Origin: Alphaproteobacteria bacterium UBA6347
Lineage (GTDB): Bacteria > Pseudomonadota > Alphaproteobacteria > CAAGCB01 > CAG-977
Reading direction: 5' to 3'
NCBI GenBank assembly: GCA_002440235.1
Contig: DJRZ01000046.1
Location: forward strand, 112,381-124,672
DNA: 12,292 bases
The notes beneath the pieces were generated by a model. The model did no database searches and had not been told where the DNA came from. It saw only the letters and a list, made by a program, of their open reading frames with translations. A program made the translations under genes and the position numbers. Shown in pieces: positions 2 to 12,276 of this stretch; the first letter of the stretch is position 1; each line of letters opens with the position of its first letter.

Positions 2-742
2 CAACGCACCATCGTCACGCCCAAAGCGCCGTCTTCGGTCATCGTGTGCCGTTCGCAGCAATGCGCCCCCGCGCGCACGAACATGACGCGCGAATTTATG
101 TACAACAGCCTGCTGAACCTGTTTGACAACAATCTGGATTCGACCGTGCTGATCTGCGACGCCGATCCGACCACCAGAATGTGTTTCGAAAACTACGTCC
201 AGTTCAACATCAAGGCGGGCGTCACCCCCGCGACGGTCGTCGTCGATTCGGCGAAGATCCTCAGCGTCAAATTGCGCAAAGCCGAACAGATCATCAACGT
301 GTCGCTGGATTACAACATGCACTACAACGCCGTGCGCCCCGCGTGCGTCAGCTCGACGAACGCCCTGTTCGTCAAATCCCCCGACTATGTGCTGATGGAG
401 GACACGGGCTACGTCTGCAAATTCACGACGACGTCCGATTCCATGATTTCCAGCGTGTTCGCGATCGACTACGTCGATTTGGACTACGGCGTCATCGGCG
501 CGAACTATTCGTTCGGCGTCGCGGGTCCCGCCTACGGCGGCGGCACGGGATACATGCTGATGCGTTTCCAGAAAAACGCCTTCCCGTCCGATCCGAAAAA
601 ATACGTTCTGCCCAAATATCCCGAAACGCCCAAACAGCCGACCACGGCGACGGGCAAAATCAAAGAGGAGTACGGCGTCAGAACCGACACGCCGAAGCTC
701 GCCCCCGGACAGTACAAAGTCACGCCTCTGCCGTTGAAATAA
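2..742 (+). CDS. Unrecognised protein, 5' end outside the window
   Basis: The reading frame is open from the first bases of the window (Q-R-T-I-V-T-P-K-A-P...) through to a TAA at 740-742. The true start therefore probably lies upstream, and the GTG at 44 is more likely an internal Val codon. About 246 residues are visible. I do not recognise a family. The visible part has six cysteines, including C-x4-C in VCRSQQC and C-x9-C in ICDADPTTRMC. The middle is rich in aromatic, Ser/Thr and Gly residues (GVAGPAYGGGTGY) and looks beta-rich. The C-terminal tail, about 55 residues, is rich in Pro and Lys (KYPETPKQP). Paired cysteines and a Pro/Lys tail would suit an exported or periplasmic protein, but the N-terminus needed to see a signal peptide is missing. 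It ends 11 bp before the AnmK-like gene, so the two are probably co-transcribed. Confidence 0.75.
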   Translation, partial: QRTIVTPKAPSSVIVCRSQQCAPARTNMTREFMYNSLLNLFDNNLDSTVLICDADPTTRMCFENYVQFNIKAGVTPATVVVDSAKILSVKLRKAEQIINVSLDYNMHYNAVRPACVSSTNALFVKSPDYVLMEDTGYVCKFTTTSDSMISSVFAIDYVDLDYGVIGANYSFGVAGPAYGGGTGYMLMRFQKNAFPSDPKKYVLPKYPETPKQPTTATGKIKEEYGVRTDTPKLAPGQYKVTPLPLK

Positions 743-5380: not shown

Positions 5381-5409
5381 ATTTTAAAGGATAACGTCCG
5401 CCACTTCAA
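5381..5409 (-). promoter_or_regulatory. Sigma70-type promoter of the SUKH - queA unit
   Basis: On the minus strand TTGAAG (5409-5404), a 17-base spacer and TAAAAT (5386-5381) form a good promoter in the 73 bp gap between the HNH stop codon and the SUKH start. It would give the putative immunity gene and queA transcription independent of the nuclease gene. Confidence 0.6.
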
Positions 5410-5415
5410 CGGTTT

Positions 5416-6042
5416 TTAGCGACCGCCCCGATTTTGCAGACGCGACGCGACGGCGGCGTTCAGCTTTTCGCGGGATTTCGCGGGACGCTTCCAGACCATG
5501 TCGTCGCTCCACGGCAGTTTGACGCGCAGTCCCTTTTCGGTGTTTTGGTTTTTGATCTGCGGGTCGATGACCTTGTGATGCAGTTCGTCGTGCGGGGGGA
5601 TCGGCACCAGAATCAGGTTTTTAAAATCGTTCGTCCCGCCGCCGTGAATGGGCTTTTTGTGATGGACGTTGAACCCGTTGACGCTGCGCCCCTTGCGCAT
5701 CAGGTCCAGCCCCGCGTCCGTGACGCCGATCGCGCGCAGTTCCGTTTCGAAATTCGCCGCGATGTATTTCAAAAAATCGGGTTTCACAACTTTGTTGAAC
5801 TCTTTGCGGCGGGCTTCGCGTTCGGCTTTGGGCGGCGTTTTGTATTCCGCGTCGATCAGGCGGAAACCGTTGATGACGTCGAACGGAAAGACGCCTTTCG
5901 CCGCGCCTTCGCGTTTGTCGCCCAGCGAATAGAAACCGGCGGATTCGGATTCGACCGTCCGTCCCTTTTCCGTTTTTCGGTTTTCCTTTTCGGCTCCGCG
6001 CCCCGAATGTTTGCGTTTGACGTGAACGTATTTGTCTTCCAT
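5416..6042 (-). CDS. HNH nuclease of colicin/pyocin-DNase type (paralogue 1)
   Basis: A 208-residue protein with a ββα-metal HNH domain like that of colicin E7/E9 DNases. The core runs MRKGRSVNGFNVHHKKP (115-131), GGGTNDFKNL (134-143), PHDELHH (150-156). H127/H128, N138/N142, H151 and H155 give the HH...N...HxxxH frame, and the helical lead-in FLKYIA...L...G...D...M..G matches the one before the colicin HNH motif. The N-terminus has DKYVHVKRKH (3-12), then a basic, probably flexible linker to residue 50; the C-terminus is a helix ending RLQNRGGR. No signal peptide, receptor-binding or translocation domain is seen. The closest paralogue in the window is the one at 11638, which shares PHDELHH, the DPQ and PWxDDMV. 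A SUKH protein follows, so it may be an effector nuclease with its immunity protein; a domestic nuclease cannot be excluded. The ATG at 6042 follows CAGG. Confidence 0.88.
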   Translation of the reverse strand: MEDKYVHVKRKHSGRGAEKENRKTEKGRTVESESAGFYSLGDKREGAAKGVFPFDVINGFRLIDAEYKTPPKAEREARRKEFNKVVKPDFLKYIAANFETELRAIGVTDAGLDLMRKGRSVNGFNVHHKKPIHGGGTNDFKNLILVPIPPHDELHHKVIDPQIKNQNTEKGLRVKLPWSDDMVWKRPAKSREKLNAAVASRLQNRGGR

Positions 6043-6107
6043 ATCGACCTGCCCGCGTTAAAAGTTTTCTTGCGGAAAAATTTAGCACACCGCCCGCGGC
6101 GATAAAA

Positions 6108-6121
6108 GAAAATTTTGTCTA
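6108..6121 (-). promoter_or_regulatory. AT-rich GACAAAATTTTC motif upstream of HNH paralogue 1
   Basis: On the minus strand TAGACAAAATTTTC lies about 65 bases ahead of the nuclease start. It resembles the longer TAGACAAAAAATATTTTTT and TTGACAAAAAATATTTTTT elements upstream of the other nuclease genes. No convincing -10 is spaced from this TAGACA; an extended -10-like TGCTAAATT occurs further on (6087-6079). Confidence 0.35.
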
Positions 6122-6129
6122 AAATTTCG

Positions 6130-6147
6130 AAAAAGCCGTTTAGCGGC
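6130..6147 (-). terminator. Short hairpin plus T run at the end of the DTW gene
   Basis: On the minus strand GCCG-CTAAA-CGGC (6147-6135) is followed by TTTTT (6134-6130) and includes the stop codon of the DTW gene. The stem is only 4 bp, so termination would be weak. Confidence 0.4.
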
Positions 6148-6778
6148 GGGCGTGCAGAGCCTTGTATTTTTCCAGCATGCGCGCGAAAGCGTCCGTCAGC
6201 CCCCGCGCGATCGCGGGATCCTCGCCCAGAAAATCCAGACACTGGGCGCACGCTTCCAGCGTCGAAACGCTTTCTTTGCGGGGTTCTTTGCGCAGTTTGC
6301 CGTACAGGGAACGTTTTTGCGGCACCAGCAGCAGGCGTTGGGTTTTCAACAGCCACGGGTTGCGCCACCACAGCGCCTTTGCCTGCGACCACGACCCGTC
6401 CAGCAGAATGATGCCGTCCAGCCCCTTGACGCGTTCGGCGGTGTCGTCCAGCAGACCGCCTTTGCGACCGACGGCGTACAGCCCCGGCGCGACGGGCGTT
6501 TCGTTCTGCGCGCCCAGATACAGCACGCCCCATTTTTTCGGATCGGCGGGGTGTTTCAGAACCGCCGCCAGACTCGGACGCGACAGCGCGATTTCCAGCC
6601 GCGCGTTTTTCAGCGCGGACACGATGATGCCCGCCGTTCCCAGTTCCTTGTCCTGTTCCTGCGGGTGTTGCAGAATCAAAACGGCGTGTTTGTTGTCAAA
6701 CGGCTCCGCGTCCGTGCAGACGCAGAGCTGTTCCGATTTTCCGCACCGTTCGCAGGTGCCTGTCTGTTCGTGTGTCAA
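6140..6778 (-). CDS. DTW-domain protein, probable tRNA-uridine aminocarboxypropyltransferase
   Basis: DTW-domain enzymes (TapT/DTWD type) transfer the 3-amino-3-carboxypropyl group of SAM to uridine in tRNA, giving acp3U. The 212-residue protein has the N-terminal zinc cysteines C9, C12, C19 and C21 (CERCGKSEQLCVC), the LILQHPQE block at 34-41, the DTW signature as LDGSW (126-130) followed by QAKALWWRNPWL, and the ES-STLEA block near 169-176. The signature is DGSW in place of the usual D-x-T-W, a conservative change. I chose the TTG at 6778: it overlaps the DUF1150 TGA as TTGA (6775-6778), GGTGAG lies six bases upstream, and the protein then starts just ahead of the zinc motif. A GTG at 6883 would add 35 residues translated from DUF1150 DNA. 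It is third in the Hsp20 operon. Its exact tRNA target is not shown by sequence. Confidence 0.87.
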   Translation of the reverse strand: MTHEQTGTCERCGKSEQLCVCTDAEPFDNKHAVLILQHPQEQDKELGTAGIIVSALKNARLEIALSRPSLAAVLKHPADPKKWGVLYLGAQNETPVAPGLYAVGRKGGLLDDTAERVKGLDGIILLDGSWSQAKALWWRNPWLLKTQRLLLVPQKRSLYGKLRKEPRKESVSTLEACAQCLDFLGEDPAIARGLTDAFARMLEKYKALHARR

Positions 6779-6990
6779 TGGACGCTCACCGGTATCAGCT
6801 TGTTGTCGAAAATCAAAGATATAGCCTGATCTTCGTCGTCCGTACAAGCTAATTCGGTTCCCTGCGCCGCATAAACGAACCACTTTTTGCGGTCGCCGAC
6901 GATTTTGGTTTTGACATAGGCGACGGAATCGACGCCCAGCCGCGCCAGTTCGTCGGTCGAAATCATGTTTTCACCGGCGTTTGTCGGCAT
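6775..6990 (-). CDS. DUF1150 family small protein
   Basis: A 71-residue protein of the alphaproteobacterial DUF1150 family, whose function is not known. Typical features are ELARLGVDSVAYVK near the N-terminus and a short alpha/beta body (WFVYAAQGTELACTDDEDQA) ending VSVH. The ATG at 6990 has a near-perfect AGGAGG five bases upstream, so it should be well translated. It sits 26 bp after the Hsp20 stop and overlaps the DTW start by 4 bases. The Hsp20 - DUF1150 pairing recurs in alphaproteobacteria to my knowledge and suggests a role in the heat or protein-folding stress response, which is inference from neighbourhood. Confidence 0.88.
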   Translation of the reverse strand: MPTNAGENMISTDELARLGVDSVAYVKTKIVGDRKKWFVYAAQGTELACTDDEDQAISLIFDNKLIPVSVH

Positions 6991-7016
6991 GACGACCTCC
7001 TGTTTTCAAAACCGCG

Positions 7017-7502
7017 TCAGGCGGTTTTCTTTTCGGATTTTTCCTTGTCGAAAGGTTTGTTTTCGATTTTTTTGTCGTGTTCGATTCTGTTTTCCTTTTT
7101 GGAAATCTGAATCTTGCGGACTTTGGATTCGGGGGCGCGCTGTTTCAAATCGATGTGCAGCAGCCCGTTGTCCAAATGCGCGCCGACGACCTCGATCCCG
7201 TCGGCAAGCACGAACGACCGTTTAAACTGGCGCGACGCGATGCCGCGGTACAGGTATTGGCGCTGTTTGGCGTCTTCGTCTTCGACATGGCGACCGCAGA
7301 CGGTCAGCTGTTTGTCGTCCAGCTCGATGCTTAAATCGTCTTCGCCGAATCCCGCGACGGCGACCGTGATCTGCAAATGCGACGGATCGATCTGTTCAAT
7401 GTTGTAAGGCGGGTAGCTTTCGGAATTTTTCGCCGCGTTGTCCAGCAGCCGTTCCAAAGAATCAAAGCCCAGCATAAAGGGCGTGTTCGTCATCAAAGCC
7501 AT
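7017..7502 (-). CDS. Small heat-shock protein, Hsp20/IbpA type
   Basis: A 161-residue ATP-independent holdase chaperone that binds unfolding proteins. The alpha-crystallin domain runs from about residue 31 to 122 (YPPYNIEQIDP, then ITVAVAGFGEDDLSIELDDKQLTVCGRH), with the FKRSFVLADGIEV block at 93-105 and the signature AHLDNGLLHIDL at 108-119. A C-terminal I-x-I motif for oligomer contacts is present as IQI (131-133), followed by an unusually long Lys/Glu-rich tail to residue 161. The ATG at 7502 has AGGAG seven bases upstream, and a family-like N-terminus follows (MALMTNTPFMLGFDSLERLL). The frame stays open upstream only across the structured leader. It leads the operon with DUF1150 and the DTW gene, behind an RpoH-like promoter. 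Confidence 0.95.
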   Translation of the reverse strand: MALMTNTPFMLGFDSLERLLDNAAKNSESYPPYNIEQIDPSHLQITVAVAGFGEDDLSIELDDKQLTVCGRHVEDEDAKQRQYLYRGIASRQFKRSFVLADGIEVVGAHLDNGLLHIDLKQRAPESKVRKIQISKKENRIEHDKKIENKPFDKEKSEKKTA

Positions 7503-7590
7503 CTTATTTCTCCTGAAAAGCAAACAATCGGCGGAACCGTCGGCGGCTTCCGTCGCCGGAACGCCCCGAACGGGCGCGTCCCGACAAAAA
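7503..7590 (-). ncRNA. ROSE-like RNA thermometer in the hsp20 leader
   Basis: The leader of about 85 bases is GC-rich and full of inverted repeats (around GACGCGCCCGTTCGGGGCGT and GACGGAAGCC...GACGGTTCC). Its 3' end reads UUGCU (7523-7519), UUUC loop, AGGAG (7514-7510). That is the hallmark of ROSE elements: a UYGCU anti-Shine-Dalgarno pairing with AGGA around an odd G, which melts on heating. Position, host group and target gene all fit a ROSE element. The full fold was not computed. Confidence 0.62.
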
Positions 7591-7593
7591 GGA

Positions 7594-7622
7594 ATATAGG
7601 TTGCCTTTTCCCGAACGGCAAG
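7594..7622 (-). promoter_or_regulatory. RpoH (sigma32)-type promoter of the hsp20 operon
   Basis: On the minus strand CTTG (7622-7619), 18 bases, then CCTATAT (7600-7594). This fits the heat-shock sigma factor pattern of alphaproteobacteria (CTTG, 17-18 bases, CYTATnT). It lies about 90 bases ahead of the hsp20 start, leaving room for the structured leader. Confidence 0.6.
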
Positions 7623-7644
7623 AGGAACAACCCGTTTTTTCAAC

Positions 7645-7662
7645 AAAAAGTCGTTTTACGAC
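7645..7662 (-). terminator. Short terminator at the end of the TerC gene
   Basis: On the minus strand GTCGT-AAA-ACGAC (7662-7650) followed by TTTTTG. The hairpin contains the TerC stop codon. The stem is 5 bp with a 3-base loop, so it is modest. Confidence 0.45.
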
Positions 7663-8654
7663 GCCTCGCGCGCGTGTTCCTCCGCCTCTTCCTTTTCGGC
7701 GGATTTCAACAGCGACAGCAGGATTCCGCCGCCCAGCAGAGCGAACGTGACCAGCAGGGACCAGCTGTCCTCGATTTTAAAGAAAAACTCGCCCACGAAC
7801 ACTTTCAGTCCGATCGTCACCAGCAAAATCGCGCAGGCGGGCTGCAAATACGAAAAGCGGTGCATCGCCGCGCACACCATGAAATACAGCGCGCGCAACC
7901 CCAAAACGGCGAACATGTCGCTGGAATACACGGCGAACGTTTCGTGCGACACCGACAGCATCGTCGGCACGCTGTCGATCGCGAACAGGGCGTCGCCGAA
8001 TTCGATCAGCAGCAACGCCAGAAAAAGCGGCGTCGCGTACCACTTCATCTTTCCCGGTTCGGATTGCGACGGTTCGCGGACAAAGAAATGTTCGCCGCGC
8101 AGTTCGTTCGTCAGCCGCAGGTAATGGCGGAAAAAACGCAGCATTCTGCTGTCCGACAAGTTGATGGCGGGATCGTCCGAAAACAGCATTTTCAATCCGG
8201 AATAAATCAGGAAAACGGCAAAAATCAACAACACCGGATCCCATTGATCAAGGATTTCCGCCCCGATCACGAACATCACGCCGCGCAGGACCGCCGCGCC
8301 CAGAATGCCCCAAAACAGCACGCGGTGCTGCAAATTCCGCGGAATCGCCAAATAGGAAAAAACCAGCGAAATCACGAACACGTTGTCGATCGACAGCCCG
8401 ATTTCGACGACGTATCCCATAAAGTATTCCGCCGCCATGCCTTTTCCGAAATACCACCAGATCCACGCGCCGAACAGACAGGCGATCGACGCGTAAGCCG
8501 TGAACAGAATCAGGCTTTTTTTCGCGCTGATTTCCTGCGCCTTTTTTTCCAAAACGCCCAGATCCAGAAACAGGACGGCGGAAAAAACAGCAAAAAACAT
8601 CAGCCATATCCAAACCGGCTGGTGCAGAACGACCGCGTGCAGAAAATCAAACAT
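7656..8654 (-). CDS. TerC family integral membrane protein (Alx-like)
   Basis: A 332-residue polytopic inner-membrane protein with about seven to nine hydrophobic segments. TerC/Alx proteins are linked to metal-ion (notably manganese) export, sometimes to tellurite or pH stress. The two family signatures are intact: EIGLSIDNVFVI (84-95) and IEFGDALFAIDSVP (217-230), with acidic residues E84, D90, E218, D221 and D227 placed for metal binding. A cytosolic loop (160-205) lies between the two halves, and the C-terminus is a charged EKEEAEEHARE tail. I prefer the ATG at 8654; an in-frame GTG at 8666 would add four residues, and neither has an ideally placed ribosome site (GGAG is 11 bases before the ATG). 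It is last in a unit with pheA and the outer-membrane protein gene. Calling it a tellurite gene would be over-reading. Confidence 0.93.
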   Translation of the reverse strand: MFDFLHAVVLHQPVWIWLMFFAVFSAVLFLDLGVLEKKAQEISAKKSLILFTAYASIACLFGAWIWWYFGKGMAAEYFMGYVVEIGLSIDNVFVISLVFSYLAIPRNLQHRVLFWGILGAAVLRGVMFVIGAEILDQWDPVLLIFAVFLIYSGLKMLFSDDPAINLSDSRMLRFFRHYLRLTNELRGEHFFVREPSQSEPGKMKWYATPLFLALLLIEFGDALFAIDSVPTMLSVSHETFAVYSSDMFAVLGLRALYFMVCAAMHRFSYLQPACAILLVTIGLKVFVGEFFFKIEDSWSLLVTFALLGGGILLSLLKSAEKEEAEEHAREAS

Positions 8655-8671
8655 ACCCTTTGACACTCCGA

Positions 8672-9277
8672 TTAAAAATGATAGCGCAAGCCGAGCAGGA
8701 CTTTACGCATTTTCACGTCCTGACGCAAGCGTTCCCCGCCGTCCTTTTTCGTTTTCGCGTTTCCCGCGTCCATATAGGAATAGGACACGTCCAGCGTGAA
8801 ATTCGCGGGCAGTTCGATTCCGACGCCGCCGACCGCCTGCCACGCCAGATGATAGCGGATATCCCCCGCCATGTTCCGACCGTTCAATCTGAAATCCTCC
8901 AACGCGTTGCGCGCGACTCCGCCGCCGACTCCGATGTACGGGGTCGCGCCTTTGACGGAAAACAGATCGGCGAGAAGCGTTCCCGTCGCCGCGAAAGATC
9001 GGGCGTGCGCGCGCGTGCCGCTTGCCGCCGCGTTTTCAAAAGCCTGCGCCCCGCGAACGCGGACGCGTGTAAAGCTCAGATCGAATTCGGCGCGCAGGAA
9101 ATCGCCGTATTTCCGACCGAACCCCGTTTGCGCGGCGTACGATTCCTTAACGCCGCCGGCGGTCGAATAGACATAGCCCGCGTCCGCGCGGGTGTAAAAC
9201 CCGTCGTCCCCCTGACCGGCGAAAGCCGCCGGCGCGGCGCAGAAAAAGAGGACTGCGGAAAGGATTTTCCTGAACAT
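8672..9277 (-). CDS. Outer-membrane beta-barrel protein (OmpA/OprF-like 8-strand type)
   Basis: A 201-residue exported protein. A signal peptide is clear (MFRKILSAVLFFCAAPAAFA, probable cut after A20). The mature part alternates polar and hydrophobic residues as in an 8-stranded barrel: FYTRADAGYVYS, YGDFLRAEFDLSFTRVRV, SFAATGTLLADLFS, TPYIGVGGGVARN, WQAVGGVGIELPANFTLDVSYSYMDAG, and a last strand VLLGLRYHF ending in Phe, as Bam-inserted barrels do. This is the small outer-membrane porin-like/OMP_b-brl class. No specific substrate or adhesin function is recognisable. The start follows AGGA and lies 11 bp after the pheA stop, with the TerC gene just downstream. Confidence 0.87.
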   Translation of the reverse strand: MFRKILSAVLFFCAAPAAFAGQGDDGFYTRADAGYVYSTAGGVKESYAAQTGFGRKYGDFLRAEFDLSFTRVRVRGAQAFENAAASGTRAHARSFAATGTLLADLFSVKGATPYIGVGGGVARNALEDFRLNGRNMAGDIRYHLAWQAVGGVGIELPANFTLDVSYSYMDAGNAKTKKDGGERLRQDVKMRKVLLGLRYHF

Positions 9278-9288
9278 GGCGCGTTTTC

Positions 9289-10146
9289 CTACTGTTGTTT
9301 GCTTTTCAAGGCGGCGCGGTACGGATCGGCGGAGTAAGTCCCCAGCAGACGGACGGATCGGGCGAAAAAGCCCAGTTCCCGCATCGCCCTTTTGAAATCC
9401 GCCGATTCGCCGTGCGCGGCGACGTCGACCAGAAATCCCGCCGACATCAAAAACCGTTCGGGGTCAACGTAGCTTTCCAGCCGCAAAAGGTCAATCCCGT
9501 TTGTCGCGAATCCGCCCAGACATTTGTATAAAACGGCGGGTTCGTTTTTTACCCAGAACAGAAACGACGTGACGGCGCCGTCCGCGCCGACGTTTTCAGC
9601 GGGCGTCCGCGACAAAGCCCAGAAGCGCGTCGTGTTCAAAGAAGAATCCTCTATCCCCGACCGCAGGACGTTCAGCCCGTACAGCCGCGCCGCCGTTTCG
9701 GACGCGATCACCGCGACGTCCCCGCGTCCCGTTTCCGACAGTTCGCGCGCCGCCGCCGCGGTGTTGCCCGCCGCTTCGATCTTCGCGCCCAGCCGTTTCA
9801 GAAATCCCGCGCACTGCGACAGCGCCTGCGGGTGCGACCGCACGGTTTTGACGGCGGACAGATCGCCGGTCGTTCCCAGCAGGCAATGGCGCACGCGCAA
9901 AAAATGCTCGCCCGTCACGAACAGGTCGGTCGTTTTCAGCAGACGGTGCATGTCCGCCACGCGCCCCGCCGCCGAATTTTCGACGGGCAGGACGGCTTGA
10001 CGCGCCGCGCCCGCGCCGACCGCCGCCAAAGCGTCGTCGAACGTCGGATAAAACGCGATGTCCGCGTCCGGAAACATTTCCAGCGCCGCCTGATGGGAAA
10101 AAGCCCCCGGCACCCCTTGGCAGGCGACGCGCGCGCGTGTTGTCAT
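9289..10146 (-). CDS. pheA: Prephenate dehydratase with ACT domain
   Basis: Converts prephenate to phenylpyruvate in phenylalanine synthesis; this is the single-function form with no chorismate mutase domain. The 285-residue protein has the catalytic domain at about 5-180: GVPGAFSHQAA (11-21), VLPVENSAAGRV (52-63), SHPQALSQC (104-112), the IASETAARLYGL block (147-158) and the catalytic NTTRF (171-175). The regulatory ACT domain follows (about 192-270): TSFLFWVKNEPAVLYKCL, then LLRLESYVD. The phenylalanine-binding ESRP motif reads ESYV, a form common in alphaproteobacterial enzymes, so feedback control may differ from the enteric type. The ATG at 10146 follows GGAAGG. It heads the unit with the outer-membrane protein and TerC genes and is transcribed divergently from HNH paralogue 2. 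Confidence 0.95.
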   Translation of the reverse strand: MTTRARVACQGVPGAFSHQAALEMFPDADIAFYPTFDDALAAVGAGAARQAVLPVENSAAGRVADMHRLLKTTDLFVTGEHFLRVRHCLLGTTGDLSAVKTVRSHPQALSQCAGFLKRLGAKIEAAGNTAAAARELSETGRGDVAVIASETAARLYGLNVLRSGIEDSSLNTTRFWALSRTPAENVGADGAVTSFLFWVKNEPAVLYKCLGGFATNGIDLLRLESYVDPERFLMSAGFLVDVAAHGESADFKRAMRELGFFARSVRLLGTYSADPYRAALKSKQQ

Positions 10147-10167
10147 CTGACCTTCCGTTTTCAGTTT

Positions 10168-10196
10168 TTTCTATCGAAAAAAATATTTTTTGTCAA
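10168..10196 (-). promoter_or_regulatory. Promoter of pheA
   Basis: On the minus strand a perfect -35 TTGACA (10196-10191), a 17-base spacer that is almost entirely A/T, and TAGAAA (10173-10168). The start of transcription would fall about 15 bases before the ATG. The spacer holds the palindrome described at 10178-10194. Confidence 0.6.
10178..10194. repeat. AT palindrome shared with the HNH paralogue 4 promoter region (copy A)
   Basis: AAAAAATATTTTTT (10178-10191) is a perfect palindrome. Together with the adjoining GTC it matches, in reverse orientation, 17 bases at 11558-11574 exactly. It lies in the pheA promoter spacer and just upstream of the -35 of HNH paralogue 2, a suitable place for a shared operator. 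Low complexity weakens the case. Confidence 0.5.
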
Positions 10197-10201
10197 AACT
10201 G

Positions 10202-10228
10202 TTGAGTCCGTTTTCGATATGATATACT
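10202..10228 (+). promoter_or_regulatory. Extended -10 promoter of the HNH paralogue 2-3 unit
   Basis: TGATATACT (10220-10228) is an extended -10 with TATACT matching five of six consensus bases. TTGAGT (10202-10207) is a -35 at a short 15-base spacing, which an extended -10 tolerates. The leader of about 50 bases holds a small hairpin, GGCAA-GCGAA-TTGCC (10246-10260), ahead of AAAAGGA. It is back to back with the pheA promoter, the two -35 boxes being 5 bp apart. Confidence 0.6.
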
Positions 10229-10287
10229 CTTTTTCAAACAAGAAAGGCAAGCGAATTGCCCGAATCGCAGAATTAAAAGGATTTTTT

Positions 10288-10956
10288 ATGGCTGAAAAGG
10301 ATCTTTCGTCCCCGCGCGCCTACCGTTTCGTCCACGTCAAAAGACCGCGTCCGGCGCAGGGACAGAACCGCCCGACCGAAAAATTCGACTGTTCCGAAGC
10401 CGACAGCTTTTTGGGCGTCCCCTTGCGCGAGGTCGAATTCGTCATTCCGCCGAAAGCCGAACGCGAAAAACGCCGCGCCGAATTCGAACGGGGAATCCGC
10501 GCCGCTTTCGTCAAACATCTGGCGGAAACGCAAAAGGACGCCCTGTTGCGCGCCGGTCTGACCAGACAGCAGATCCGCGGCATGCGCGACGGATTCACCC
10601 CCAACGGTTTCAACACGCATCACAAACACCCGATTTACGGCGGAGGGACGAACGATTTTTCGAATTTGGTGCTGATCCGCCGCGAACCCTATCACGACAT
10701 GATGCACTACCACGTCATCACGCCGCAGACCGCCGCGATGAAAACGGGCGACCGCAAAACGGTCAAAATCCCCGATCCGCAGACGCCCGTCTACGTGCCG
10801 CCGACGCGCTACAAATTCCTGTTGCGCTGGGCGAAGCAGGGCAAAAAAACATACGGCAAACGCAAAAACATCACGCTTGCCGACGTCCGGCGCAAAGCCG
10901 CGCAAACGGGCGCCGTCATAATGAAATGCGTGAAAAATCCGCAACAGGGACGATAA
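10288..10956 (+). CDS. HNH nuclease of colicin/pyocin-DNase type (paralogue 2)
   Basis: A 222-residue member of the same family as the nuclease at 5416-6042. The HNH core is MRDGFTPNGFNTHHKHP (99-115), GGGTNDFSNL (118-127) and PYHDMMHYH (134-142); H111/H112, N122/N126, H136 and H140 keep the full catalytic frame. The helical lead-in FVKHLAETQ...LLRAGLTRQQIRGM matches the other paralogues. The N-terminus has YRFVHVKRPRP (12-22), the shared VHVKR motif, then a Pro/Gln linker. The C-terminal part after 172 is longer and more basic than in the others (KQGKKTYGKRKN) and ends QQGR. No secretion signal or delivery domain is seen. The ATG at 10288 follows AAAAGGA six bases upstream; the frame is open further up, but that runs through the promoter. 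It is followed two bases later by paralogue 3. No immunity-like gene is adjacent. Confidence 0.87.
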   Translation: MAEKDLSSPRAYRFVHVKRPRPAQGQNRPTEKFDCSEADSFLGVPLREVEFVIPPKAEREKRRAEFERGIRAAFVKHLAETQKDALLRAGLTRQQIRGMRDGFTPNGFNTHHKHPIYGGGTNDFSNLVLIRREPYHDMMHYHVITPQTAAMKTGDRKTVKIPDPQTPVYVPPTRYKFLLRWAKQGKKTYGKRKNITLADVRRKAAQTGAVIMKCVKNPQQGR

Positions 10957-10958
10957 CG

Positions 10959-11549
10959 ATGACCGACAATTTCGAACACAGAAAACCGACCAAGGCGGAA
11001 AAGGAAGCCCGCCGCGTCGAACGCGCCGCGCAACAGGAAATCGAACGGCAAAAACGCGTCGCCGCCCTGCCCGCTTCGGTTCACGGCGCCCCGATGGTCA
11101 AAATGGAATACACCGCCGTCGGAACGAAAAAAATCAAAGAAATGCGCCGTTCCTTCACCCCTTTGCGCAAAGCGTTTCTGAAACATCTGGCGCAGACGCA
11201 GTCCCCCGTGTTAAAGGCGCTGGGCATGTCGGACAACATGATCGCCGGCATGCTGAAAGGCAACGCCCCGAACGGGTTTAACGTGCATCACAAAAAACCG
11301 CTGGGCGGCGGCGGAAAGAACGAATTTTCGAACTTTATCCTGATTCAGAACAATCCCTACCACACCGATTTTCACAAAGCGTCGGACGTTCAAATCTGCA
11401 AAATGCAACCCGGCGAAACGAAAACCGTCAAAATCCCGATGCCCGAAGGCAGCATTTTCATTCCCCCCGCGATGAAACAGCGCGTCGCCGAAGCCGTCAA
11501 ACAGGCGTCCGCCGCCGCGATGATGAAAAAAGCGCGGGACGGTCGCTGA
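10959..11549 (+). CDS. HNH nuclease of colicin/pyocin-DNase type (paralogue 3)
   Basis: A 196-residue paralogue, the second gene of a unit with paralogue 2 (2 bp gap; ribosome site CAGGGA inside the end of the upstream gene). The HNH core is MLKGNAPNGFNVHHKKP (98-114), GGGGKNEFSNF (116-126) and PYHTDFHK (133-140), with H110/H111, N121/N125, H135 and H139 conserved. It departs from the others in two ways. The N-terminus lacks the VHVKR motif and instead has a highly charged predicted helix (KPTKAEKEARRVERAAQQEIERQKR within 9-33), and the residues after the last catalytic His (KASDVQ) lack the HxVxxPQ pattern. The C-terminus is an Ala/Lys helix ending ARDGR. The catalytic set is complete, so it is not obviously inactive. 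Its tandem arrangement suggests duplication and divergence. Confidence 0.86.
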   Translation: MTDNFEHRKPTKAEKEARRVERAAQQEIERQKRVAALPASVHGAPMVKMEYTAVGTKKIKEMRRSFTPLRKAFLKHLAQTQSPVLKALGMSDNMIAGMLKGNAPNGFNVHHKKPLGGGGKNEFSNFILIQNNPYHTDFHKASDVQICKMQPGETKTVKIPMPEGSIFIPPAMKQRVAEAVKQASAAAMMKKARDGR

Positions 11550-11555
11550 AAAAGT

Positions 11556-11585
11556 TAGACAAAAAATATTTTTTGTGGCAATATT
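11556..11585 (+). promoter_or_regulatory. Candidate promoter of HNH paralogue 4
   Basis: TAGACA (11556-11561), an 18-base spacer and AATATT (11580-11585). Each box is imperfect, but the -35 position matches TTGACA in the equivalent pheA element. The leader then holds a perfect 6 bp hairpin, GAATCG-TCAAA-CGATTC (11600-11616), before AAAGG and the start codon. No terminator separates this gene from paralogue 3, so read-through is also possible. Confidence 0.4.
11558..11576. repeat. AT palindrome upstream of HNH paralogue 4 (copy B)
   Basis: ACAAAAAATATTTTTTGT (11559-11576) is an 18 bp perfect palindrome inside the spacer of the candidate promoter. GACAAAAAATATTTTTT (11558-11574) is identical over 17 bases to the reverse complement of 10178-10194. 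It could be an operator for a dimeric regulator or a MucR/H-NS-like AT site. Confidence 0.55.
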
Positions 11586-11637
11586 CTTTCAACAGGTTCG
11601 AATCGTCAAACGATTCTTTGCATGAAAGGTTTTGATT

Positions 11638-12225
11638 ATGGTCGACACGGATCGCTACGTTCACGTCAAACGCGAAAAGAAAAAAGGCAAAGGCAAAAAC
11701 GGCGGAAAGCCCAAACAGACGCAATCCCAGCTGGACGCGCGCAACGGCAAATTCCCCTTTACCGAAATCAACGGCTTTAAATTGAAAGAAGTCGAATGGA
11801 CGGTTCCCGACCAGCAGACCCGCAAACGCCGCCGCCGCCAGTTCAACGCCGTGCGCGAAGAGTTTTTGAAACACATCGGCAAAACGCAGGAACAGGCTTT
11901 GCGCGACATGGGGCTGACCGACAAGCAGGTCGAAATGGTCAAAAAGGGACACGCCCCCAGCGGATACAACGTCCACCACAAACTGCCGATTCACGGCGGC
12001 GGACAGAACGTGTTTGAAAACCTGATTCTGATGCCCGTCAAACCGCACGACGAACTGCACCACACGGTGATGGATCCGCAGGTCGCGCAAATGCAGACGG
12101 GCGATTCGAAAAAGGTCGTCATTCCGTGGACGGACGACATGGTCTACGTTCCCGCCGAACGCCGGCGCGCCCAGCCGCAAAACGCGGCGGTCGTCGCCAA
12201 GGTCGCGGCGAACCGCGGCAGATGA
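11638..12225 (+). CDS. HNH nuclease of colicin/pyocin-DNase type (paralogue 4)
   Basis: A 195-residue paralogue closest to paralogue 1. Both share a near N-terminal RYVHVKRE/KYVHVKRK (6-13 here), INGFKL at 44-49, the core PSGYNVHHKLPIHGGG (107-122), NLILMPVKPHDELHH (128-142), xxMDPQ, and the PWTDDMVYVP strand (163-172). The catalytic frame is complete: H113/H114, N124/N128, H137 and H141. A Lys/Gly/Gln-rich, probably disordered linker (13-32) separates the N-terminal motif from the nuclease part. The C-terminal Ala/Val helix ends ANRGR, so all four paralogues end in GR. The ATG at 11638 follows GAAAGG; a TTG six bases earlier is in frame but less likely. The gene ends the cluster before a strong terminator, so no immunity gene follows in the same unit. 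Confidence 0.89.
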   Translation: MVDTDRYVHVKREKKKGKGKNGGKPKQTQSQLDARNGKFPFTEINGFKLKEVEWTVPDQQTRKRRRRQFNAVREEFLKHIGKTQEQALRDMGLTDKQVEMVKKGHAPSGYNVHHKLPIHGGGQNVFENLILMPVKPHDELHHTVMDPQVAQMQTGDSKKVVIPWTDDMVYVPAERRRAQPQNAAVVAKVAANRGR

Positions 12226-12246
12226 GTTTTTCATTCATACTCCTTG

Positions 12247-12276
12247 AAAAAGCGGGACTTGTTCCCGCTTTTTTTT
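12247..12276 (+). terminator. Intrinsic terminator after HNH paralogue 4
   Basis: AAAAAGCGGGA (12247-12257) pairs with TCCCGCTTTTT (12263-12273) around CTTGT, followed by further T residues. The core is GC-rich with a long T run, about 20 bases past the stop codon. The 16 bases after it show nothing recognisable. Confidence 0.85.

Follow-up and report, generated by a model that had tools for sequence, protein, structure and literature searches.

Among polymorphic toxins, Imm-SUKH is listed for Tox-ColE7, Tox-HNH and Tox-AHH in extracts of Zhang 2012 (PMC3482391). The X-T4SS of Xanthomonadales, with its X-Tfe and X-Tfi proteins, is a chromosomal type IV secretion system (T4SS) with immunity proteins and with a C-terminal signal on its toxins, the XVIPCD of ~120 residues; its toxin genes are dispersed in the genome, one of them inside the vir locus (excerpts of PMC6536674). 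In the DotLMNYZ-IcmSW complex of Legionella Dot/Icm, the tail of a VirD4-type coupling protein recruits auxiliary effector-receiving proteins (excerpts of PMC7280309 and PMC12857230). Here we describe four genes for small predicted HNH nucleases (copies 1 to 4) and one SUKH gene in a 12,292-nucleotide stretch of Alphaproteobacteria bacterium UBA6347 (contig DJRZ01000046.1, positions 112,381 to 124,672), referred to below as the window. Among known systems it appears to resemble the X-T4SS most. We favour the view, as reasonably probable, that the four proteins are cargo effectors of a chromosomal T4SS in gut and rumen Alphaproteobacteria, guarded by one conserved SUKH protein. In openly licensed literature on T4SS, SUKH/YrhA, DotN, DUF6782 and gut Alphaproteobacteria we found no description of such a system, which is no proof of absence.

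Predicted HNH nucleases and their SUKH partner

Copy 1 (5416..6042, minus strand, 208 aa) lies apart from copy 2 (10288..10956, plus strand, 222 aa), copy 3 (10959..11549, plus strand, 196 aa) and copy 4 (11638..12225, plus strand, 195 aa); copies 2 and 3 are separated by 2 nt. The first-pass annotation had proposed four separate HNH proteins that share one motif series, and both points held: all four open reading frames (ORFs) are open and complete, and N-(V/T)-HH-K-x-P, GGG-x-N, F-x-N-(L/F) and H-x3-H follow in the same order in 4/4 copies, each with an intact HH. Identity to copy 4 is 33-44%, which indicates homology and not chance. Copies 1, 2 and 4 start with a (Y/F)VHVKR leader motif (YVHVKR in copies 1 and 4, FVHVKR in copy 2), copy 3 has the variant FEHRKP, and all four end in Gly-Arg (GGR, QGR, DGR and RGR, respectively). 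H113, H114 and N128 are invariant in 56/56 aligned sequences. In an AlphaFold2 (AF2) model of copy 4 (mean predicted local distance difference test, pLDDT, 87.9), residues 110-149 form two strands and a helix, the core of the HNH/His-Me finger. By these key residues and the strand-strand-helix core the window copies are HNH/His-Me finger nucleases; their Pfam HNH scores are under the cut-off in all four cases. The proteins are not fragments of split genes, as their orthologues in relatives are separate genes between the same flanking genes, and at 195-222 aa none has a delivery domain (LXG, RHS or the like) in Pfam or NCBIfam.

Residues 43-175 of copy 4 (11764..12162, plus strand) align to an LXG toxin of a type VII secretion system (T7SS) in a plain tblastn search (best E 1e-14, 33% identity), to a pre-toxin TG protein (E 1e-11), and also to HNH proteins of Cytobacillus and Polaromonas. 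The domain is thus alignable with LXG/T7SS polymorphic toxins over about 130 residues. Among 15 matching records, the gene after the toxin is annotated as YrhA family in 4/4 that were inspected, as is the gene beside copy 1. Unlike those toxins, the window copies consist of a basic leader, the nuclease and a short Arg tail, with no LXG or other large delivery domain.

The annotation had also likened the proteins to colicin DNases, a label that found no support. Copy 4 alone touches the colicin/pyocin DNase profile PF21431 (Col-Pyo_DNase), at 19.5 bits against a cut-off of 27, and copies 1-3 have no match to it at E<=1. We therefore rejected colicin membership, the profile score being under cut-off and the fold generic. 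The window copies also differ from colicin E7/E9 and pyocin DNases in having no receptor-binding or translocation domains and in their SUKH neighbour. That they are stand-alone relatives of these DNases is now very improbable.

A SUKH gene of YrhA family NF038335 (4902..5342, minus strand; 99.2 bits, cut-off 55), which the annotation had missed, encodes a predicted immunity protein and follows copy 1, on the strand of that gene, after 73 nt. In the gap, a weak promoter-like site (TTGAAG-17-TAAAAT, 5381..5409, minus strand; consensus scan 9 of 12) suggests that separate expression of the SUKH gene is possible. Judging from homology and gene neighbourhood, the window very probably encodes nuclease toxins with SUKH-type protection. 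The SUKH protein is 73-92% identical to that of the window in 11 relatives, exceeding queA in 9/11, and copy 1 is 52-71% identical in the 6 relatives that have it at this locus. A SUKH so constant beside variable nucleases would therefore seem to guard several of them and not just copy 1.

Association with a type IV secretion system

The relative G001 encodes a coupling protein of VirD4 type (T4SS-DNA_transf, E 1e-56); next come, in this order, a 353-aa member of the HNH family and a second YrhA-type SUKH (63 bits, cut-off 55). In 13/13 distant genomes in which loci linked to the coupling protein were examined, the series is again NERD-like membrane protein, coupling protein, HNH and SUKH. Among 385 sampled Alphaproteobacteria, 24 have the HNH family, 21 the coupling protein (counted at >=1000 bits, a line drawn after seeing the scores, the next being 827, 768 and 767) and 20 have both (Fisher p 2e-28, with no correction for relatedness); once the 7 genomes supplied by the HNH search are set aside, the figure is 13/14. 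In all 20 genomes that have both, the coupling gene adjoins the HNH gene. Related genomes also carry other T4SS parts: VirB4 in 13/14, and TrbI/VirB10 and PilO each in 25/31. Taken together with the shared tail described below, these data make export by a T4SS probable.

The HNH genes at the coupling locus have lost a catalytic residue. The second His of the HH pair is gone in 26/26 copies at, or orthologous to, the position beside the coupling gene (which was seen next door in 23 of the 26), and HH is kept in 28/28 free-standing copies (window, G001-G003, G009 and G011). The 17 coupling-linked copies in the tree form a single branch (support 100/100). Tandem proteins of G034, G164 and G228 likewise contain a degenerate HNH domain, as their first half. 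The model of the linked copy of G001 is poor as a whole (mean pLDDT 67.7), and residues about 176-310 are predicted with high confidence in the same order of strands and helices as the intact fold, so that in the model the catalytically dead copy keeps the HNH fold. A conserved small HNH protein of about 135-200 aa with an intact HH, away from the coupling gene, was observed in four distant genomes (L170-L173).

Such an arrangement differs from the X-T4SS, as the family member encoded at the secretion locus has a dead catalytic site and the toxin-immunity stock is another one. The coupling complex of Dot/Icm offers a possible model for the coupling protein with its pseudo-HNH and SUKH, both systems having a VirD4-type coupling protein. 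A likeness of the dead copy to DotN was rejected, since no DotN or other Dot entry was among the profile matches shown or the best 50 of 122 Foldseek matches; the coupling-protein profile had no PDB sequence match at E<=1e-5. The last 40 residues of the coupling protein carry a net charge of -17 to -28 in G001, G002, G005, G006, G011 and G012, and of -17 to +5 in 13 distant genomes; the value for G013 is -1, with a broken reading frame.

The T4SS genes themselves are unusual. On contig C13 of G001 (L128:234-12955), a T2SSE ATPase, PilO, a secretin and a lipoprotein stand beside VirB2 (TrbC) and VirB4; the secretin, PilO and the T2SSE ATPase are a further difference from the X-T4SS. VirB10/TrbI matches lie inside giant ORFs of about 2000-2700 aa in 12 genomes of the order of G001. 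Beside the coupling-protein locus on contig C14 (L130:2815-8071) there are three large membrane proteins that are related to one another and look like VirB6; the one tested had no Pfam match.

Upstream element and C-terminal tail

A second family enters the comparison here. AHH-like nucleases (L059:4329-5027, L063, L067 and L072; three in tandem in G014) have the same leader motif and tail as the HNH proteins. They match the HNH profile weakly over their first part (E about 1e-5 to 1e-9) and may be diverged HNH kin, and we did not count them as independent evidence on the tail. The N-terminal motif was rejected as an independent effector marker: of its 12 DNA pattern matches in G001-G003, 8 are in the HNH/AHH-like family, and in the other 4 the motif is not at the protein start.

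A short element precedes the window copies. The sequence TAGACAAAA lies upstream of copy 1 (6113..6121, minus strand) and again upstream of copy 4 (11556..11564, plus strand), where it overlaps a promoter-like TAGACA-18-AATATT; TTGACAAAA lies upstream of copies 2-3 (10188..10196, minus strand, opposite to these genes) and is at the same time upstream of the divergent prephenate dehydratase gene. Copies 1, 2 and 4 thus have the core GACAAAA within 150 nt. With this 7-mer, which was chosen after looking at these sequences, and with either orientation allowed over <=150 nt, the element is present at 21/21 HNH or AHH-like transcription units (window and G001-G003) vs 7/93 background genes; among the 7, several belong to the T4SS or border on the same intergenic region as copy 2. 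The element was rejected as a marker of a regulon across the genome, being not enriched in G001 and with many of the 30 sites inspected inside ORFs.

The trail of the upstream element brought up, in G001, DUF6782 metallopeptidases whose tails are similar; in this family the 9-mer is upstream in 11/30 genes and the 7-mer in 14/30. Eight of the ten genomes searched have 17-35 copies, some in tandem arrays (L221-L250), and G034 and G302 have none. A tie between DUF6782 and the coupling protein was rejected: 20 of the 385 genomes have DUF6782 (E<=1e-6), and 10 of these the coupling protein.

The tails of the HNH and DUF6782 families can be compared directly. The candidate secretion signal of copy 4 is its last 25 residues (12148..12222, plus strand; net charge +5). 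An Arg end is found in 117 of the best 120 of 210 homologues, and in 65/82 complete family members vs 7/134 conserved background genes; over 120 HNH proteins, the mean net charge is +4.8 for the leader (first 40 residues) and +4.9 for the tail (last 25). The 30 best-scoring DUF6782 proteins end in Arg (20), Lys (7) or Gly (3). With a position profile built from 55 distinct HNH tails, these 30 can be told apart from 117 background tails at an area under the curve (AUC) of 0.973, or 0.945 without the last residue. Shuffling the positions of the DUF6782 tails lowers the AUC to 0.817 (maximum 0.889 of 200 shuffles), and therefore both composition and order count. HNH and DUF6782 proteins, to judge by their sequences, are unrelated enzyme families that share one tail, which seems somewhat likelier to act as a signal than not. 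The tail of about 25 residues sets the system apart from the X-T4SS: what follows the HNH match in the window copies falls short of the XVIPCD in length.

Two further observations concern genes with the upstream element. An ORF of about 320-410 aa in the T4SS locus (L130:9480-10709, with counterparts in L131, L132, L135 and L180) has TDGACAAAA directly upstream in 5/5 genomes and varied basic ends (GKSM, NGSR, GGRG, YEGR, KRSR), and is a possible further substrate. A second, more distant coupling-protein paralogue occurs on contig C4 of G001 (L184:7205-9460) and in ten other genomes; in G001 and G005 a nearby gene for aminopeptidase N has the upstream element and encodes a basic C-terminal end (KIKER, KSQGR).

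Conservation in relatives

The HNH family is present in 14/14 relatives with 2-8 copies each, relatives that came from genomes picked by the HNH search, so that the positives are partly so by construction; the 12/12 sampled genomes of the order of G001 that are HNH-positive are among these 14. The full order queA-SUKH-copy 1-DTW-DUF1150-HSP20-TerC-outer membrane protein-pheA-copies 2-4 is kept in G001, G002, G003 and G008, and in G006 without an HSP20 match. G005 and G007 have lost copy 1 and kept the SUKH gene; G009, G010 and G014 keep SUKH and queA, with no copy 1 in the stretch examined. In a tree of 51 domains, every window copy falls into a separate, supported orthologous group (copy 1 100/100, copy 2 97/88, copy 3 100/99, copy 4 100/98). 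Non-synonymous and synonymous divergence (dN/dS) against G001 is.31/.93,.37/1.22,.12/1.19 and.16/.74 for copies 1-4 and.05/.72 for SUKH, values that come from the G001 comparison only, as G002 and G003 are partly saturated and several dS are not computable. These lineage-wide orthologous groups, with dN well under dS in the unsaturated comparison, bear out the earlier view of a maintained set and not a relic. In G012, a degenerate HNH copy with three stops (G012:C2:53734-54255) beside an intact copy marks ongoing gene loss.

Elsewhere in the window, an intrinsic-terminator-like hairpin lies 3' of copy 4 (12246..12274, plus strand), and an open-ended ORF (2-742, plus strand) has no Pfam or NCBIfam match at E<=1. 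An Rfam scan for RNA elements gave no match at gathering score. Matches to PHROG 31266 and 14497 (E down to 3e-12) are to entries that have no known function. A phage origin was rejected, as tblastn confirmed none of 125 pattern matches in IMG/VR.

Weighing the explanations

If the four proteins are T4SS cargo, each would be a polymorphic-toxin HNH domain that has taken on a short basic leader and an Arg-terminal tail of roughly 25 residues in place of its large delivery domain. The tail would probably dock on the coupling protein, which has an acidic C-terminal tail in close relatives, and once inside a recipient cell the HNH domain would cleave DNA. The SUKH protein beside copy 1 would protect the producer, probably against all paralogues because no SUKH gene accompanies copies 2-4. 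The dead family member and its own SUKH, placed behind the coupling protein, could be part of the docking complex, a role that we regard as possible more than probable. Of the three roles suggested in the first-pass annotation (effectors, anti-phage nucleases or a diversified toxin set), effectors are the best supported, and anti-phage nucleases found no support, as 0/4 proteins matched in a PADLOC-DB search at E<=1.

Several observations weigh against this account. The T4SS of the window's own genome is deduced from relatives. The acidic tail of the coupling protein is weak or absent in most distant genomes, and in one genome (G278) the coupling protein occurs with neither HNH nor SUKH. Copies 2-4 have no adjoining SUKH gene within the window, unlike ordinary toxin/immunity pairs and unlike the LXG/T7SS toxins. 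Basic composition explains part of the tail signal. On the side of the upstream element, there is the after-the-fact choice of the 7-mer; TTGACA resembles a -35 box, and G001 shows no enrichment of the 10-mer TDGACAAAAW (78 sites vs 88 in the reversed control). Finally, G100, G111, G228 and G292 carry the HNH family without a coupling protein at >=1000 bits, and G010 has HNH copies but no VirB4 match. Except for G292, these last cases also suit another explanation, namely that nucleases of polymorphic-toxin type leave the cell otherwise, by another secretion system, vesicles or lysis, and that the linked copy is a former paralogue sharing family and tail. Their small size and the absence of a large delivery domain would fit release without an injection machine as well. 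Given the co-occurrence with the coupling protein, the adjacency in 20/20 genomes and a tail common to two unrelated enzyme families, we consider such an exit unlikely.

Two other explanations concern where the nucleases act. They could be T4SS effectors against eukaryotic cells, e.g. rumen ciliates, with SUKH only shielding the producer's own DNA; the delivery mechanism would be that of the T4SS account, and the target alone would differ. The presence of a single SUKH, next to copy 1, with four copies in the window fits this, as does the large accompanying DUF6782 set, one member of which touches the M91 'Effector protein' profile under cut-off, and the basic leaders could act as nuclear localisation signals. 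The pairing of HNH with YrhA is otherwise seen in polymorphic-toxin loci, however, and the family also occurs in the metagenome-assembled genomes SZUA-500 and CSMAG_1913, whose titles name no animal host. A eukaryotic target is therefore the less likely one, though still a serious candidate, and we lean only slightly towards a bacterial target. A role inside the producing cell, with nucleases for DNA processing, uptake or phage defence and SUKH as a regulator, would agree with the chromosomal, vertically kept positions between housekeeping genes and with a single SUKH conserved more than the nucleases. It is quite improbable in view of the homology to secreted toxin domains, the PADLOC result and an Arg tail shared with DUF6782 metallopeptidases, which is unexpected for cytosolic nucleases.

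Export of the four HNH proteins as T4SS effectors can be extended, tentatively, to a whole system. In this joint reading, which we put forward with rather less than even confidence, an undescribed type IV effector system would use a VirD4-type protein, a dead toxin and a former immunity protein as its receptor, so that the docking complex is built from a toxin-antidote pair. The short tail would export HNH and AHH-like nucleases together with dozens of DUF6782 metallopeptidases, under shared promoter elements and with a single SUKH guard.

If true, this would mean that an uncultured lineage of the gut and rumen has an effector arsenal whose export signal is short and searchable, and that a toxin-immunity pair was turned into a part of the secretion machine. 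The tail would then make the effector sets of these genomes predictable by sequence.

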